Shown here piece after piece: positions 23,917 through 34,378 of a DNA stretch of 34,983 bases. The position numbers and the translations under genes are program-made. The notes below the pieces were generated by a model. It saw only the letters and a list, made by a program, of their open reading frames with translations. It was not told the DNA's origin and made no database searches. The DNA comes from a virus. The stretch spans positions 1-34,983 of IMG/VR virus record IMGVR_UViG_3300042691_032367; one strand, written 5' to 3'. Position 1 is the stretch's first letter. Each line of letters starts with the position of its first letter.

Positions 23917-24350
23917 TGATTTTTCTTCTTTACTGATTGTATGTCTATAACACCTGTATTAACAGGGCCACCAAAATCACCATCGACAACTACGTTGGCG
24001 CAAAGTTCACGGAACCAACGATCGACAATTTCCTCGTCCTTGTCACCGTCTGCACCATAACCGTCTTGCTTTAATTGTAGCACAAAGAACTCATTCCAGT
24101 CAAGCTCAAAAAAACCGTTACGAATGTTATCTTTGTTTACGTGAGTATTAATGACTCCGACCCAAGGTTCTTTCTTTCGAGTAGCACGATCTTTTGGCGA
24201 TAATTTGGCTAACTCTTCTTGTTCTTGAGCAAGTTTGGCAGATTCTTCTGCTTGTTGTTTTCTAATTTCTGCTTCTTCTAGAGCTTTTTGTGCCTGCACT
24301 AAACTCTCTTGGATCTTATCAATACCTAATAGTTTTTTGATCAGTTTCAT
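23913..24350 (-). CDS. Conserved marine-phage protein with coiled-coil N-terminus, 145 aa
   Basis: I chose ATG 24350, which overlaps the queE stop by one base; a GTG at 24362 would add four residues. Residues ~15-55 are a coiled coil rich in Gln, Glu and Ala ('EEAEIRKQQAEESAKLAQEQ'). The C-terminal domain has 'PWVGVINTHVNKDNIRNGFF' and 'ELDWNEFFVLQLKQDGY', a pattern I remember as strongly conserved in T4-like marine phages. A late 'EEIVDRWFRELCANVV' completes it. Function is unknown. Its position between queE and the exonuclease suggests expression with replication genes. Confidence 0.75.
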   Translation of the reverse strand: MKLIKKLLGIDKIQESLVQAQKALEEAEIRKQQAEESAKLAQEQEELAKLSPKDRATRKKEPWVGVINTHVNKDNIRNGFFELDWNEFFVLQLKQDGYGADGDKDEEIVDRWFRELCANVVVDGDFGGPVNTGVIDIQSVKKKNQ

Positions 24351-25201
24351 TAAGTTCCCCACTCATTTTTAAACAAAGGCACCTGCAAGCGATCTGAATA
24401 GCGTAGACCATTTTTCATTGCCAGTTCCGCTACACGGCGATTATTTAATGTATAAACACTTTCTACTCCACCCACTGGCATCAAATATACAGGACCAGTA
24501 AAGCCTTCTGCACGATAAATGTCTACAGTTTCTAAGGCTTCTTCGGCGTCGTCTTCTGTGGCTACTACAAATTTTAGATAGGCGTAGCCTACTTCTTGAT
24601 ATTCGCATACAACATCAGGTCGAATAGCTACAGATCTTTCTTCGCCGCTGCAACTTAATTTCGCACTAACAGAAAACGTTAATCTAGTGTAACCTCTTTT
24701 TTCAATACCCCAATCTAATAGATATTTTTTAAATTCGGGTGTAAGATTTTGAGTACCATTAGTTTCAAAAGTAATTTCTTTTAAACCTTCCATCTTAGGA
24801 TGATTTAAAAGTTCCGGATAGATATTTTGCCATTTTAACAAAGGCTCCCCTCCAGTAATAACTAAATGTTCATCTTCCCATTTACCGTATGGTAGAATCT
24901 TCATTATGTTTTCTGCGATCTCGTCCGGGCTATAAAAAGGACTCAGATGTTTAAAAGCTGGATGCCACGAAGCATAGCTATCACAGCCTGTTGATACTAG
25001 AGGTAACTCTTCATAAGTTTTATACAGATGTACATTGTTAGCAATAGGATCAACTTCAGTAGTTGATTCTCCTTTAGGCATGCCAAACCCGGCACACTTA
25101 AAATTGCAACCAAATGTTCTCATAAACACTGAAGGAACGCCCATAAAACGTCCTTCTCCCTGTATGCTGTAAAACAGCTCTGCTAATTTAATTTTTTCCA
25201 T
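24350..25201 (-). CDS. queE: 7-carboxy-7-deazaguanine synthase (QueE), phage type
   Basis: QueE turns 6-carboxytetrahydropterin into 7-carboxy-7-deazaguanine, the third step from GTP to preQ0. The 283-residue protein has the QueE opening 'LAELFYSIQGEGRFMGVPSV' and the SAM-binding 'VITGGEPLLKWQ' near 114-124. It also has 'FETNGTQ' and 'FSVSAKLSCSGE'. The cluster motif is not the usual CxxxCxxC: Cys32 and Cys36 are present in 'GCNFKCAGFGMP', but position 39 is Phe. The next cysteine is Cys73 in 'STGCDSYASWHP'. I recall this GFGMP variant from phage QueE proteins, so the gene is probably functional with a displaced third ligand. With FolE, QueD and the DpdA-like gene in this window it forms a DNA 7-deazaguanine pathway. 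Confidence 0.92.
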   Translation of the reverse strand: MEKIKLAELFYSIQGEGRFMGVPSVFMRTFGCNFKCAGFGMPKGESTTEVDPIANNVHLYKTYEELPLVSTGCDSYASWHPAFKHLSPFYSPDEIAENIMKILPYGKWEDEHLVITGGEPLLKWQNIYPELLNHPKMEGLKEITFETNGTQNLTPEFKKYLLDWGIEKRGYTRLTFSVSAKLSCSGEERSVAIRPDVVCEYQEVGYAYLKFVVATEDDAEEALETVDIYRAEGFTGPVYLMPVGGVESVYTLNNRRVAELAMKNGLRYSDRLQVPLFKNEWGT

Positions 25202-26636: not shown

Positions 26637-27220
26637 TTTGCCCACCAATCTTCCCAAGGGAAATCAACCCAAACATCGTTTTCTGCTTTGTTGATTTCTT
26701 TTCCAACAAAATCCATTTTAACTTCGCACTTACTAGCTAGATTATCAACTAATACTGCAAATTTTACATTATTGTTCCAAACGTGTTCCCAGTCAGGATC
26801 GTTAGGCAAACAGCCACTCGGCCAATCATTAATTATCCAATTAAAAGTAGCACCGGTGTCGTTGATGTCGTCAACAATAAGAATATTCTTAAAGTTTTCA
26901 CCTTGTTCTAAAAGTGAACCAGCTGCATCTAATACAGCCCCTATATCGTTTTCGTCGGTTACGAATATTTCTTTTTTAGGATAACCTAAAGCATCTTCGG
27001 CCATCCATAAATTACTTTCTCCGCCCTGACCATCTCGTAGGCTTACTCCTAAGGCATACATCGGAACATTGAGATAATGACTGATCATTACAGCAGGAAT
27101 CAGCCCACCTCTTGTTAATCCTACAATGTAATCAGGACGCCAGCTGCTGATCACAATATCTCTACATATCTTGCTAACAAGACCGTTAAGTTCTTGTTGT
27201 TGAAATATGAGCTTGTTCAT
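26633..27220 (-). CDS. Type I phosphoribosyltransferase
   Basis: The protein has 195 residues. The PRPP-binding loop is 'ILIVDDINDTGATF' (about 113-126), with the two acidic residues at 117-118. The pyrophosphate loop region is 'YIVGLTRGGLIPAVM' (31-45). This is the layout of purine and xanthine/hypoxanthine salvage transferases, which join a free base to PRPP. An insert at about 62-110 ('RDGQGGESNLWMAEDALGYP') is longer than in bacterial enzymes. The start has 'AAAGGAAAG' upstream. The base cannot be predicted; given the deazaguanine genes, a modified purine is possible but speculative. It is followed in ATGA overlap by the HIT gene. Confidence 0.85.
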   Translation of the reverse strand: MNKLIFQQQELNGLVSKICRDIVISSWRPDYIVGLTRGGLIPAVMISHYLNVPMYALGVSLRDGQGGESNLWMAEDALGYPKKEIFVTDENDIGAVLDAAGSLLEQGENFKNILIVDDINDTGATFNWIINDWPSGCLPNDPDWEHVWNNNVKFAVLVDNLASKCEVKMDFVGKEINKAENDVWVDFPWEDWWAK

Positions 27221-27662
27221 ATCTTTCCTTTAAATATTGTTCGTGTTGAATCCATTTGTTATTAACTAAGAATCCCCAATCACGTTTGTGAGGACCGGGC
27301 ATAAACAACGTCCACGCTGTTACGCCAGGCTTAAGCTCAATACGATGATAAGAGTTAGGGCTACATATACGAAAATGGCCGGGTCCTCTCCATTTACGTA
27401 TTTCACAAGATTTATTGCCCTGTTCGTCAAACTGCGGAACCCATTCATAATAACCACCTTTCAAAATCAATGTAGCATAGGGCCAAGGATGATCGTGAAC
27501 GTCATCCGGATCTCCTTTTAAGAACTTGTGTAAAAATACATTAAATGGAAAACGGTTACGCTCTTTTAAAAAGAGATAATACCGTTCGAGATACGGTTCA
27601 TTGTGTACGCGATCAAAAATAATACGCTTACGACCTAATCGTTCAAGTAGCTTCAACAACAT
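27186..27662 (-). CDS. Cupin-like protein
   Basis: The protein has 158 residues. A central 'DVHDHPWPYATLILKGGYYE' and a later 'SYHRIELKPGVTAWTLFMPG' match the two halves of a cupin barrel, with His residues that could bind one metal ion. The C-terminal 'RDWGFLVNNKWIQHEQYLKE' is a conserved phage ending that I recall. Cupins include dioxygenases, epimerases and binding proteins, so the reaction is open. The gene overlaps the DNA glycosylase gene by 20 bases and the phosphoribosyltransferase gene by 35 bases, so the three are co-translated. Confidence 0.75.
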   Translation of the reverse strand: MLLKLLERLGRKRIIFDRVHNEPYLERYYLFLKERNRFPFNVFLHKFLKGDPDDVHDHPWPYATLILKGGYYEWVPQFDEQGNKSCEIRKWRGPGHFRICSPNSYHRIELKPGVTAWTLFMPGPHKRDWGFLVNNKWIQHEQYLKERYEQAHISTTRT

Positions 27663-28080
27663 TAAAAATTTCCTCTTCGAGATATCTTTTTAGTTCTTTG
27701 TCTGTAGGTTGCACAGAATAATTTTGTTTAAAAAAGATTTCGTAGCTATCGCTTCCGTATTTGCCGATACCATACAACAGTTTAGCATCATTTCCATCCC
27801 AAAGCAAGAAATCAGCAGTCATTCTTTTAAGTCTTTGAAAACGTACATTGTACATACCTAACGGCCAAATTACTTCCTTGACCTCGTCGATAGTAGAGAA
27901 CAAAAATTTATTAGGAGTGGGCCAACGATTGAGAAATATAGGCAGTACATACTTCACTGCCTTTCTTCCAGTTTGATTTAGCATAATGACAGCGACCATA
28001 TGCTGCCAAGCACGAACAGTTCGATCGTTAGAAGGTAACTGTTGTTGTACCATTAATTCATCTAATAACGGTTTAATCAT
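27643..28080 (-). CDS. MBD4-like HhH-GPD DNA glycosylase
   Basis: The 145-residue protein covers a minimal HhH-GPD fold. It has 'VAVIMLNQTGRKAVKYVLPI' (helix with the QT motif of EndoIII-like enzymes), then 'LGMYNVRFQRLKRMTADFL'. The helix-hairpin-helix is 'LYGIGKYGSDSYEIFFK', with Asp111 in the catalytic position. This segment closely matches the catalytic site of MBD4, which also reads GIGKYGxDSYxIF. The Lys of bifunctional EndoIII is replaced by Tyr, so a monofunctional glycosylase acting on mispaired T or U is expected. No C-terminal Fe-S cysteines are present. Confidence 0.8.
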   Translation of the reverse strand: MIKPLLDELMVQQQLPSNDRTVRAWQHMVAVIMLNQTGRKAVKYVLPIFLNRWPTPNKFLFSTIDEVKEVIWPLGMYNVRFQRLKRMTADFLLWDGNDAKLLYGIGKYGSDSYEIFFKQNYSVQPTDKELKRYLEEEIFNVVEAT

Positions 28081-28294
28081 GTGTGCCTTCTAACCAGCGA
28101 TCTACCATTTCTTCTGCTTCCTGTTGACTTACTGCTAATACAGAGAACCAAGCATATTCTTGATTGGCTTTTATGTCAAAAGGAACAGGCCCCCTAGTGA
28201 AAGATAAAGGGTCGTCAAGAGATCTCTGAACTTGAAAAGTTTTAAGATTTCTAACTCTTTGTATAAAAGAACTGGCTAATTCTGCACTATTCAT
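28073..28294 (-). CDS. Hypothetical protein, 73 aa
   Basis: It has 'FIQRVRNLKTFQVQRSLDDP' then 'AWFSVLAVSQQEAEEMVDRW', a small alpha/beta protein with a C-terminal helix. The second half resembles the strand-helix ends of small phage proteins with the pattern 'xxxSVxAxSxxEAxxxVxxW', but I cannot name a family. It overlaps the DNA glycosylase gene by 8 bases. No catalytic or metal-binding motif is seen. The position right after the CDGSH-like gene suggests shared transcription from the folE side. Confidence 0.65.
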   Translation of the reverse strand: MNSAELASSFIQRVRNLKTFQVQRSLDDPLSFTRGPVPFDIKANQEYAWFSVLAVSQQEAEEMVDRWLEGTHD

Positions 28295-28303
28295 TATAGT
28301 CTT

Positions 28304-28468
28304 TTATTTTTGTTCTGCTTCTTGATCTTTACGAAACTGTTCTTCTAGCCAGAGTCTTTTTTGATGTTGATACATATCTTCTGACAGACTGTGCCATCCG
28401 ATACAATCTCCTGTAGGACTACGACCACAGCCACAGGTTCCTTTTTTTAGTTCAGTTTGTTGATTCAT
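28304..28468 (-). CDS. CDGSH-like small Fe-S protein, 54 aa
   Basis: This gene was found by reading the 182-base gap after folE. ATG 28468 has 'AAGGA' five bases upstream. The product has 'GTCGCGRSPTGDCIGWHSLS' at residues 10-29, with Cys12, Cys14, Cys22 and His26. Three Cys and one His in this spacing closely follow the CDGSH iron-sulfur motif (C-x-C...C-D-G-x-H), with CIGWH in place of CDGSH. The rest is a charged amphipathic helix. CDGSH domains hold a 2Fe-2S cluster used in redox or cluster transfer. Here it could serve the Fe-S-dependent radical SAM enzymes or QueE, which is inference. Confidence 0.75.
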   Translation of the reverse strand: MNQQTELKKGTCGCGRSPTGDCIGWHSLSEDMYQHQKRLWLEEQFRKDQEAEQK

Positions 28469-28476
28469 AATTTTCC

Positions 28477-29313
28477 TTATCTAGGGGCAAAGTCTTGTTG
28501 TAATTTGATATTATCAAAGAATTCCTTCTTTGTACTTTGGTCATCTTTGAAAGCACCTTTTAGCACAGTAGTCTGTGTTAAACTTGAATGTGCCATAATA
28601 CCGCGATTCTCGCAGCATCCGTGTACTGCTTGAATATAAACACCTACATCCTTGGCACCTGTAGCTCGCATGATTTCTCGGGCAATGTCGTTCGCCAACT
28701 CTTCTTGAAGCGTGCCGCGCCGGGCACACCACTGTGCGATACGAGTGTATTTAGAAAGGCCGATGAGTTTTTCTGCGGCAATGATGCCGATATATGCCAC
28801 GCCACTAACGGGCTGGTGATGATGACTACACATACTGCGTAGCTCGCTACGGACAACCAACATACCTTCGTAACGGTCCTCTGTATCATTTGGAAACGCT
28901 GTAGCGTCTGGTGCTGGTTCATATCTTCCTGCCATTATTTCATTAAAGTACATTTTAGCAAGACGTCTTGCTGTACCTTTGCTGTTAGGATCAGTTTCTC
29001 GATCAATAAGCAATCTATCTAGAACTGTTTCAAATGCTTCTGCGGCTTCGTCAATAAGTTTCTCTTTATCGCCTTCGTGTAAGAAGTCGCTGATGTTATC
29101 GCCTGCCCAAAAACGTTTACCTTCACGTTTCATTTTAAAGCGAAGATGATCGCCAAGATATGCTTCTTCGTAGCCCTTGTCACTCATCATTTCCCCAGCT
29201 TTAACATAAACTTTTTGGGGAAGTGGAACATACTGATCTTTAAATTCGTCTTTTACGAATTCTGTGTTTATATTTTCATTTAATACAGGATCTGGTTTAA
29301 ATTTGTTTGTCAA
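28477..29313 (-). CDS. folE: GTP cyclohydrolase I
   Basis: FolE converts GTP to 7,8-dihydroneopterin triphosphate, the first step to folate and to 7-deazaguanines. The start is TTG 29313, with 'GGAG' eight bases upstream. The 278-residue protein has the zinc and active-site motifs 'RSMCSHHHQPVSGVAYIG' (Cys162, His165) and 'AVHGCCENRGIMAHS' (Cys233). The core starts at about residue 85. The N-terminal ~80-residue extension is longer than in E. coli FolE; its role is unknown. With queE, queD and the DpdA-like gene it supplies the deazaguanine route. It lies 35 bases from the GT-B gene. Confidence 0.93.
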   Translation of the reverse strand: MTNKFKPDPVLNENINTEFVKDEFKDQYVPLPQKVYVKAGEMMSDKGYEEAYLGDHLRFKMKREGKRFWAGDNISDFLHEGDKEKLIDEAAEAFETVLDRLLIDRETDPNSKGTARRLAKMYFNEIMAGRYEPAPDATAFPNDTEDRYEGMLVVRSELRSMCSHHHQPVSGVAYIGIIAAEKLIGLSKYTRIAQWCARRGTLQEELANDIAREIMRATGAKDVGVYIQAVHGCCENRGIMAHSSLTQTTVLKGAFKDDQSTKKEFFDNIKLQQDFAPR

Positions 29314-32821: not shown

Positions 32822-34378
32822 TTATTCCACTTTCAATTTGTCAAGTTCTTCGTCTTCTCTCTCATCTGAGTAAGCAGATTTTTCTTCTTCGCCTTCTTCG
32901 TAGAAGTGTTGATTAAATGTACTCTTAACACCTCCGCGCAGTCTAGCACCTTCCACACCGTTTAAGAAACCTAGTGTAGTAGCAGTTTCGATCATTTCGA
33001 ATGCTGCGGTTTTATCTTTACAGGCAAACAATTCTTCTACAAAGCTGTCAAAGTAAAGAATGTTTCTAGGAACCCAATCACTGATTTCGTCGCTGTAGTC
33101 ATTGTCTTTGACTTTAGCACGATATGTTCTCCACGGCATTCTAGGTTTATTTTTTAGCTCGATATCCATTAAGTGATTTGCACGTTGTACCGCAACAATA
33201 TGACAATACACATTATGACTCATCATCAATGCATAGGCAAATGAATCCCAAGAAGTTTTACCTTCTTTACCGATCTTGTTTAACATTCCTGGTGCATAGT
33301 GGCAGATATCAGCGATCGTAAGTCTGCGACCAACTTCGGACTCGAAAGGAAAAGGTATATCGTGCCGTCCGGAAAGACTCTTATTATCCGGGGCTTTATC
33401 CATGATAACACTCCAGCGTTTAGGGGTATGTTGGGCGTTAGTGTATACCAATCCGTGAGCTGTTGCGATGAACGGTGATGCACAGTCAAAGGAGATAGTG
33501 AAGTTTTCATTGATATGTTTCCTAATTTGTCTCTGAATAGACGTTAAGTAACAACTCCAGTCTAATTGTGCAGTACCTAAGAAGTGCATCCAATCTTTAC
33601 CTTCTAGCATACCATCGAACTTCATAGTGATAAGACGCTTTAAGGTTACTGGCATTTTGCACATATTGGCACCACCCATAGCCCATCCTTCAGCGGCTTT
33701 GTCACCCCATACTGCTTTGTCGCTGAATTCTTTAACACCTTGATACCAAGCTTCTGCAGTTTCCCAATTAGAACCCTGTAAAACATTTAAAAATTTAGTA
33801 CCACCATTATCAGAACCAACTCTATTTTCAATAAAGTATTTGTTATTGAATTGTGTCTTCTCAAGACAATCATCAAAGGTTTTTAAACCTGTTTTTTCAG
33901 TATGATTTTTATCACAGGCCCAGGTAGGCACGTCTAGCATCATAGACCAGTCTGCAGTAACATCTAACCAAGTTAAGATTTTTTCACGGACTTTGTTAGC
34001 AGCAGGGCCTTCGAAGTCTTGCCAGTCGAATTTAATAACACCCTTACCAATCTGGTATCCACCAGAATCTCCTAAGATCATTGTTTTAGAACGATCTCTA
34101 GCCTGTATCATTAGTTCTTGATCAAGACTCTTTTCGATATCTAATTGTGCATGACCTGCTGAATACAAAGCATTTTTATAATAAAAATATCCTTGTTCTG
34201 GATTAAGAAAGTTCATACCTTCGATACCACGGTCGAATCCTTTGGGAATTCGATCATTAGGTATAAATTCTTCTTTTCGTTGTTTGTCTACATAGGTACT
34301 ATAGAAAGAACTGATCGCAGGAAGATAAACTGCGTAGTCCTTTTGTAATGGTGTTAAGTCAACTGGTTGTTTGTTCAT
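32822..34378 (-). CDS. dpdA: DpdA-like DNA/tRNA-guanine transglycosylase
   Basis: The 518-residue protein has the TGT-fold hallmarks. 'LGDSGGYQIGKG' (Asp104, Ser105, Gly106, Gly107) holds the base-binding Asp. 'MMLDVPTW' has Asp149, and 'GWAMGGANMCKMP' is the GG loop that contacts the base. 'ISFDCASPFIATAHG' has Asp298 in the position of the TGT nucleophile. Phage DpdA enzymes swap guanine in DNA for a 7-deazaguanine such as preQ0, which blocks restriction enzymes. The tRNA-enzyme zinc motif (CxCxxC..H) is not visible, which favours DNA over tRNA. FolE, QueD and QueE in the window supply the precursor. A Glu/Asp-rich C-terminal tail is unusual. Confidence 0.88.
   Translation of the reverse strand: MNKQPVDLTPLQKDYAVYLPAISSFYSTYVDKQRKEEFIPNDRIPKGFDRGIEGMNFLNPEQGYFYYKNALYSAGHAQLDIEKSLDQELMIQARDRSKTMILGDSGGYQIGKGVIKFDWQDFEGPAANKVREKILTWLDVTADWSMMLDVPTWACDKNHTEKTGLKTFDDCLEKTQFNNKYFIENRVGSDNGGTKFLNVLQGSNWETAEAWYQGVKEFSDKAVWGDKAAEGWAMGGANMCKMPVTLKRLITMKFDGMLEGKDWMHFLGTAQLDWSCYLTSIQRQIRKHINENFTISFDCASPFIATAHGLVYTNAQHTPKRWSVIMDKAPDNKSLSGRHDIPFPFESEVGRRLTIADICHYAPGMLNKIGKEGKTSWDSFAYALMMSHNVYCHIVAVQRANHLMDIELKNKPRMPWRTYRAKVKDNDYSDEISDWVPRNILYFDSFVEELFACKDKTAAFEMIETATTLGFLNGVEGARLRGGVKSTFNQHFYEEGEEEKSAYSDEREDEELDKLKVE

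Follow-up and report, generated by a model that had tools for sequence, protein, structure and literature searches.

A small phage protein family with an invariant three-cysteine, one-histidine motif recurs on marine bacterial chromosomes

Introduction

The consensus published for CDGSH proteins reads PhiCXCXX(S/T)XXXPPhiCDG(S/T/A)H in the accessible text of two papers (PMC3174974, PMC5859297), and the former describes type 5 there as a tandem CDGSH joined to a glutamate-synthase FMN domain. According to the available part of a further paper (PMC8463382), NEET clusters, when oxidised, can be handed to apo-acceptors. No phage CDGSH protein was found described in open PMC papers, as far as their titles and the beginnings of their abstracts tell. 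A Roseobacter phage with folE/queE has been reported, and the available part of that report (PMC11981692) does not mention the small protein considered here. For the E. coli LysR regulator YhaJ, the accessible part of PMC5031710 describes the divergence of yhaJ and yhaK and links the YhaJ regulon to quinol-like compounds.

The window analysed here is a whole stretch of 34,983 nucleotides from an uncultivated virus (IMG/VR record IMGVR_UViG_3300042691_032367). A sequence-only reading had singled out a 54-residue ORF behind folE as a CDGSH-like Fe-S protein. The relatives, metal-site comparisons, predicted structure and genomic company of this protein are reported below.

Results

A 54-residue gene in the folE gene run

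The gene lies at 28304..28468 on the minus strand and translates as MNQQTELKKGTCGCGRSPTGDCIGWHSLSEDMYQHQKRLWLEEQFRKDQEAEQK. Its core, residues 12-26 (CGCGRSPTGDCIGWH, within 28304..28468, minus strand), was delimited from the translation, the relatives, the Cys/His conservation and the codon variation. The ORF itself, the spacing of Cys12, Cys14, Cys22 and His26, and the ribosome site were all as the sequence-only reading had described them, the last being a Shine-Dalgarno-like AAGGA just before the ATG (28474..28478, minus strand). Upstream, separated by an 8-nt gap, is folE, encoding GTP cyclohydrolase I (28477..29313, minus strand; PF01227, E 5.4e-40; phrog_2197). The next ORF begins 9 nt past the stop and encodes 73 residues of unknown function (28073..28294, minus strand; no match in Pfam, NCBIfam or PHROGs); among 185 phage loci, 44 have relatives of it close to the small gene. 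The same gene run includes a QueE-like radical SAM enzyme (24350..25201, minus strand; phrog_2076, E 8.7e-52) and an ORF (27186-27662, minus strand) that matches phrog_4786, 'cysteine dioxygenase' (E 6e-38), and has no Pfam match.

Among the ORFs of the window that start with ATG and reach 40 residues, 91 in all, this one alone carries the C-x-C-x7/8-C-x3-H motif. When residues were shuffled within the window ORFs, 11 of 1000 windows contained one or more such loose motifs and none of 1000 the stricter C-x-C-x2-[ST]-x4/5-C-x-G-x-H.

Elsewhere in the window, several radical SAM proteins are encoded among other ORFs between 7168 and 17470 on the plus strand. Four of these ORFs were tested; three scored above the Pfam cut-off, one of them with a B12-binding domain as well, and the fourth scored below it. 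A 518-residue ORF (32822-34378, minus strand) carries the string GDSGGYQ, which resembles a motif of tRNA-guanine transglycosylase/DpdA enzymes. This ORF matched nothing in Pfam, PHROGs or PADLOC, and PDB sequences yielded no match of weight; together with FolE and QueE it would fit a 7-deazaguanine DNA pathway. Scanning the window for Rfam families and tRNA genes gave no matches.

Relatives keep the three cysteines and the histidine

A scan of viral contigs yielded 190 confirmed relatives of the 54-residue protein, 80 of which were kept. These 80 loci represent 59 distinct cores, and the core CGCGRSPTGxCxGWH is nearly invariant across them. Because the seeds of the viral search partly contained the motif, conservation was retested with patterns free of the ligands concerned. 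The cysteine-free pattern GRSPTG-x3-GWH returned at least 119 stretches, one being a chance match; among the other 118 matches listed, both N-terminal cysteines were kept in 117, the exception having serine as the second, and the third cysteine was kept in all 118. The pattern CGCGRSPTG, which leaves the third cysteine and the histidine free, also returned at least 119 stretches, one of them cut by the end of its locus; in the 118 readable matches listed, third cysteine and histidine were both kept without exception, and tryptophan was replaced by leucine in 16 of the matches listed. The two sets of matches overlap. Loss of the cysteines and the histidine in homologues, named beforehand as what would speak against the protein, was thus not seen.

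Across the 185 de-duplicated phage loci, each conserved residue is written with several synonymous codons while the x positions vary, and selection therefore acts on the protein. The relatives, the conservation of ligands in tests that did not require them, the codon variation and the shuffled controls together rule out a chance ORF; the gene is genuine. Five relatives are present in the BFVD structure library under the name 'Uncharacterized protein', from uncultured Caudovirales phages.

Two variants of the phage protein were observed. In 30 of the 185 loci (e.g. L012, L013, L016, L023 and L065) the small protein forms the C-terminal part of an in-frame fusion with a domain bearing the signature KGSxxRPxSVxxxxFxxNxDxIF, stand-alone versions of which lie directly upstream of the small gene in a few loci. 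In 20 of these 30 fusions the internal ATG has retained a Shine-Dalgarno-like site ahead of it, against a background of about 10%; two products may therefore arise from nested starts. A conserved DSCT tail, which brings one more cysteine, forms the C-terminus of 43 of the 185 phage proteins (e.g. L010, L020 and L049), and typical bacterial members have no such tail.

Distribution in bacteria and phages

With a 26-row alignment as query, 214 relatives were confirmed on bacterial genome contigs, and 80 of them were kept. They are mostly small proteins, the shortest of 39 residues (L099), from marine Proteobacteria including Rhodobacteraceae, SAR86, SAR116, SUP05, Methylophilaceae and Luminiphilus. 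Many reside on large chromosomal contigs with host-type neighbours (3.95 Mb, 2.2 Mb and a complete one of 1.3 Mb), and the presence of a homologue among ordinary host genes on bacterial chromosomes agrees with the definition of an auxiliary metabolic gene. A few of the 'bacterial' members probably come from phage contigs that were binned with bacteria, such as L083, a 4-kb contig whose protein has the phage-type tail.

In a profile search of 398 genomes from the phylum of the seed genome, with up to 17 candidates scored per genome, six matches reached E ≤ 0.01 and only that of the seed genome was convincing; the gene is therefore rare in the phylum at large and the family is patchy. A search of plasmids gave no match, and tblastn against 50,697 phage records gave no fitting match. 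One tblastn match in an Erythrobacter phage (E 5) was rejected as a relative after inspection of its DNA.

The window protein had no accepted match in Pfam, NCBIfam, PHROGs or PADLOC, so the profile check proposed in the sequence-only reading came back negative: neither a Pfam nor an NCBIfam model, CDGSH included, recognised it. When 38 members were scanned singly, six touched DUF1289 (PF06945; best E 0.0084) and one touched CDGSH (PF09360; E 0.033) in Pfam, and nothing better than 0.036 was obtained from NCBIfam. The string CGCGRSPTG did not occur in the open PMC papers searched, and no prior description of the protein family was found in open PMC papers; it is an undescribed family. Although missing from Pfam, NCBIfam, PHROGs and PADLOC, the family is frequent in contigs of uncultivated phages and turns up repeatedly in marine bacteria.

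Comparison of the metal site with CDGSH, DUF1289 and SEC-C

In the matches listed, the family has three cysteines and one histidine arranged as C-x-C ... C-x3-H. Of the CDGSH consensus, the ligands, the serine and the glycine are found in it; the aspartate, the proline, both hydrophobic places and the Ser/Thr/Ala position are not. The residue after the third cysteine (core position 12) is I, V or C in the family versus Asp in CDGSH, and where CDGSH has hydrophobic residues the family has mostly T, K or S before the first cysteine and K, D or N before the third. The loop from the first cysteine to the histidine spans 15 residues, compared with 16 in all 58 extracted CDGSH motifs. The likeness to the CDGSH core C-x-C-G-x-S...C-x-G-x-H involves glycine at position 4 and serine at position 6, which are present in 44 and 48 of 56 CDGSH motifs, respectively.

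Profile comparison by hhalign of 204 family sequences with 56 CDGSH modules gave a moderate probability of 54.7, with the four ligands in register and one gap; none of 200 column-shuffled CDGSH profiles reached this value, and the reversed profile gave 1.6. Against DUF1289 the same larger profile gave 53.2, which none of 200 shuffles reached, over 18 helix columns devoid of cysteine. With a smaller alignment the hhalign order was reversed (CDGSH 26.0, DUF1289 54.4). On account of the register of the four ligands in the larger profile, CDGSH is treated as closest in the metal site. For SEC-C, the zinc motif aligned over nine columns at 9.4, and in place of its C-x-C-G-S-G ... C-[CH] the family has I/V/C after the third cysteine and a conserved histidine at +4; membership in SEC-C was rejected on the low hhalign value.

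Predicted structure

AlphaFold2 was run on 38 sequences with residues 2-54 (28304-28465, minus strand, without Met) as reference. The model (mean pLDDT 81.4) consists of a loop at 1-28 and a helix at 29-52 in the numbering without Met, with no strand; in the full protein the predicted helix covers residues 30-53 (within 28304..28468, minus strand). The N-strand and beta-sandwich of CDGSH are thus missing from the predicted fold, and Foldseek matched the family model to no solved structure in the PDB. As a matched control, a CDGSH module of 51 residues was modelled from 24 sequences; its model had strands and gave 51 PDB matches with E up to 10, the first being the type 6 CDGSH structure 3tbn; the best 50 of these 51 were all CDGSH/NEET chains, or complex chains linked to CDGSH by PDB sequence search. 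Because the control recovered both the strands and the NEET structures, the difference between family and CDGSH is not a limit of the tool, and a prediction of this kind cannot place a metal.

As judged from sequence and model, the 54-residue protein is not a CDGSH-family protein. The earlier term 'CDGSH-like' stands for ligand order and flanking residues and falls for CDGSH membership, whether by published consensus or by predicted fold. Small 3Cys-1His metal proteins are a known kind, of which the present family would be a variant outside CDGSH.

Redox neighbours in bacteria, FolE and QueE in phages

Bacterial neighbourhoods were examined in 80 loci, some with short flanks. A divergent LysR gene lies directly upstream of the small gene in 15 of them. 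Glutathione-transferase-type and glutamate-synthase-type genes were each found in 12 loci, cytochrome b561 and pirin each in six, and two DoxX types in five and four. At least one of the GST, DoxX, pirin, cytochrome b561 or glutamate-synthase types occurs in 26 of the 80 loci (together with the divergent LysR gene in 13), and none of the six redox neighbour types in 54. A true CDGSH-motif protein is encoded within 5 kb of the small gene in eight of the 80 loci, on seven contigs (L128 and L131 share one), and the neighbour in L103, a tandem CDGSH with a glutamate-synthase domain, has the type 5 architecture. Ten genomes with the small gene were searched for CDGSH; matches were found in three, two of them in the same locus as the small gene. 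On the 14.4-kb contig holding L128 and L131, a block of LysR gene, small gene, cytochrome b561 and CDGSH occurs twice, as a duplication or an assembly artefact.

Phage neighbourhoods were examined in 185 loci with up to 4 kb per side, against 120 loci centred on a terminase motif. FolE was found in 60, QueE in 57 and a phosphoribosyltransferase in 51 of the 185, versus 0, 1 and 0 of the 120 controls, a contrast that gene order may exaggerate because the control loci are terminase-centred. FolE lies directly upstream of the small gene in 19 of the 185 loci, at a scripted distance of 9-14 nt in 14 of these; the recurrence beside folE in related phages that the sequence-only reading had proposed to look for is thereby borne out. 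FolE and QueE are the main, though not universal, company of the small phage gene. Among 42 large contigs carrying the small gene, 23 had strong QueE matches (below 1e-40), and QueE is therefore not an obligate client; an obligate QueE link was rejected.

Of the 185 phage loci, 10 have an AhpC-type peroxiredoxin, 7 a peroxiredoxin of a second type and 4 a rubredoxin-like ORF; all three are absent from the 120 controls. Peroxiredoxins were found in 16 of the 42 large contigs, mostly far from the small gene where its place is known, and a tight peroxiredoxin link was discarded as weak. The 127-kb contig L214 has a rubredoxin-like gene (assigned by eye) and a peroxiredoxin gene close upstream of the small gene, at gene positions -4 and -2.

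Discussion

The gene is real, its three cysteines and one histidine are invariant, and it is common to phages and bacterial chromosomes, in the contexts described above. From these observations we infer metal binding, a type of cluster, a redox or cluster-transfer role and possible clients. The reading put foremost here, tentatively, is a one-site mini-protein whose 3Cys-1His set binds a metal, most likely [2Fe-2S], with a redox or cluster role in bacterial LysR sets and in the phage FolE/QueE block. Cys12-x-Cys14 and Cys22-x3-His26 would hold one metal centre on a single glycine-rich loop (CGCGRSPTGxCxGWH) ahead of the C-terminal helix. The centre would most likely be a solvent-exposed, labile [2Fe-2S] cluster held as in CDGSH/NEET, with a loop one residue shorter and no beta-sandwich, and such a cluster in the 54-residue protein is plausible. 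In marine bacteria the small protein may belong to LysR-controlled sets for redox or aromatic-electrophile stress in a sizeable minority of loci. In phages, where it is frequently part of the FolE/QueE block, it would be an auxiliary gene whose product donates electrons or a cluster to oxygen-sensitive enzymes, for example the radical SAM proteins of the phage, or buffers redox stress. NEET clusters can be handed on, and a site exposed in a similar way would lend itself to delivering electrons or a cluster to QueE and to the other radical SAM proteins of the window, or to redox buffering.

The main rival is a zinc mini-domain, in which the 3Cys-1His set holds one structural Zn(II), the helix binds protein or nucleic acid, and no redox role exists. 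This is possible, though we lean against it. A C-x-C and a C-x3-H before a helix suit a small zinc site, the predicted model offers no beta-sandwich to shelter a cluster, and, according to the accessible text of PMC5859297, CDGSH was itself taken for a zinc finger when first annotated. Of the 204 sequences, 26 have cysteine at core position 12; the position therefore tolerates an additional thiol, which would also suit zinc. Against zinc, the ligands fall in the register of CDGSH rather than that of SEC-C, and the bacterial neighbours include redox and CDGSH proteins. A further explanation is descent from the type 5/6 modules whose genes adjoin the small gene in some bacteria, by which the protein would be a degenerate true CDGSH that lost one loop residue and the beta-cap. 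A neighbour protein in L158 has CRCGRSSTQPYCDGSH beside the CGCGRSPTG-xCIGWH of the small protein, and the profile register and the eight shared loci point the same way; the loop length constant in the CDGSH motifs, the missing hydrophobic residue before the first cysteine, the missing Pro, Asp and Ser/Thr/Ala, the N-strand that only the control model has, and the single member touching PF09360 all argue against it, and we consider such descent improbable.

Derivation from DUF1289, with two cysteines replaced and a histidine gained, is still harder to credit. The six members that touch PF06945, both hhalign values and the shared helix start W..[LM][ST] speak for it, but the larger-profile match covers the helix only and the cysteine spacing is different. 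A thiol redox switch or sensor free of metal, its cysteine pairs forming disulfides under quinone or peroxide stress, is the least probable of these explanations and very unlikely. It would be consistent with the LysR, GST, DoxX and pirin neighbours and with the peroxiredoxins near some phage genes, but disulfide chemistry does not call for the invariant histidine seen at the fourth ligand position.

If the preferred [2Fe-2S] reading is true, the family would provide a very small, easily expressed model of the CDGSH ligand set outside the CDGSH fold, and a phage supply of electron or cluster carriers to radical SAM enzymes becomes testable. If zinc is bound, the shared ligand pattern is convergence, and the family is still new. 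A bolder and rather unlikely extension of the [2Fe-2S] reading is that the family, whose members go down to 39 residues, includes some of the smallest [2Fe-2S] (3Cys-1His) proteins in nature, with a NEET-like grip rebuilt on a bare loop and helix. In oligotrophic marine bacteria it would then serve LysR-controlled operons for quinone/redox stress, and in phages it would keep QueE and other oxygen-sensitive radical SAM enzymes charged, or repair them, in the course of infection.

Among E. coli proteins, YqjF is DoxX-like and YqjG is a glutathionyl-hydroquinone reductase. The YhaJ regulon, with the LysR regulator YhaJ, the pirin-like YhaK and YqjF, resembles the bacterial loci in that a LysR gene likewise accompanies a divergent redox set of pirin, DoxX and GST types, but the small protein has no known relative there. 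SEC-C (PF02810) also begins with C-x-C-G, but its fourth ligand stands beside the third cysteine, compared with four residues further on in the small family. The DUF1289 proteins are likewise small, cysteine-rich and proteobacterial, and their helix start, W..[LM][ST]xxE, is similar; they differ in having four cysteines spaced as C-x3-C...C-x-G-C-x-R and no conserved histidine. From CDGSH (PF09360, NEET, types 1-7) the family differs by the loop one residue shorter, a tryptophan before the histidine, an additional C-terminal helix and a model that lacks strands, whereas it shares with CDGSH, especially type 5, the C-x-C ... C-x3-H ligand set, the glycine at position 4, the serine at position 6, the glycine of CxGxH and the register of the profiles.
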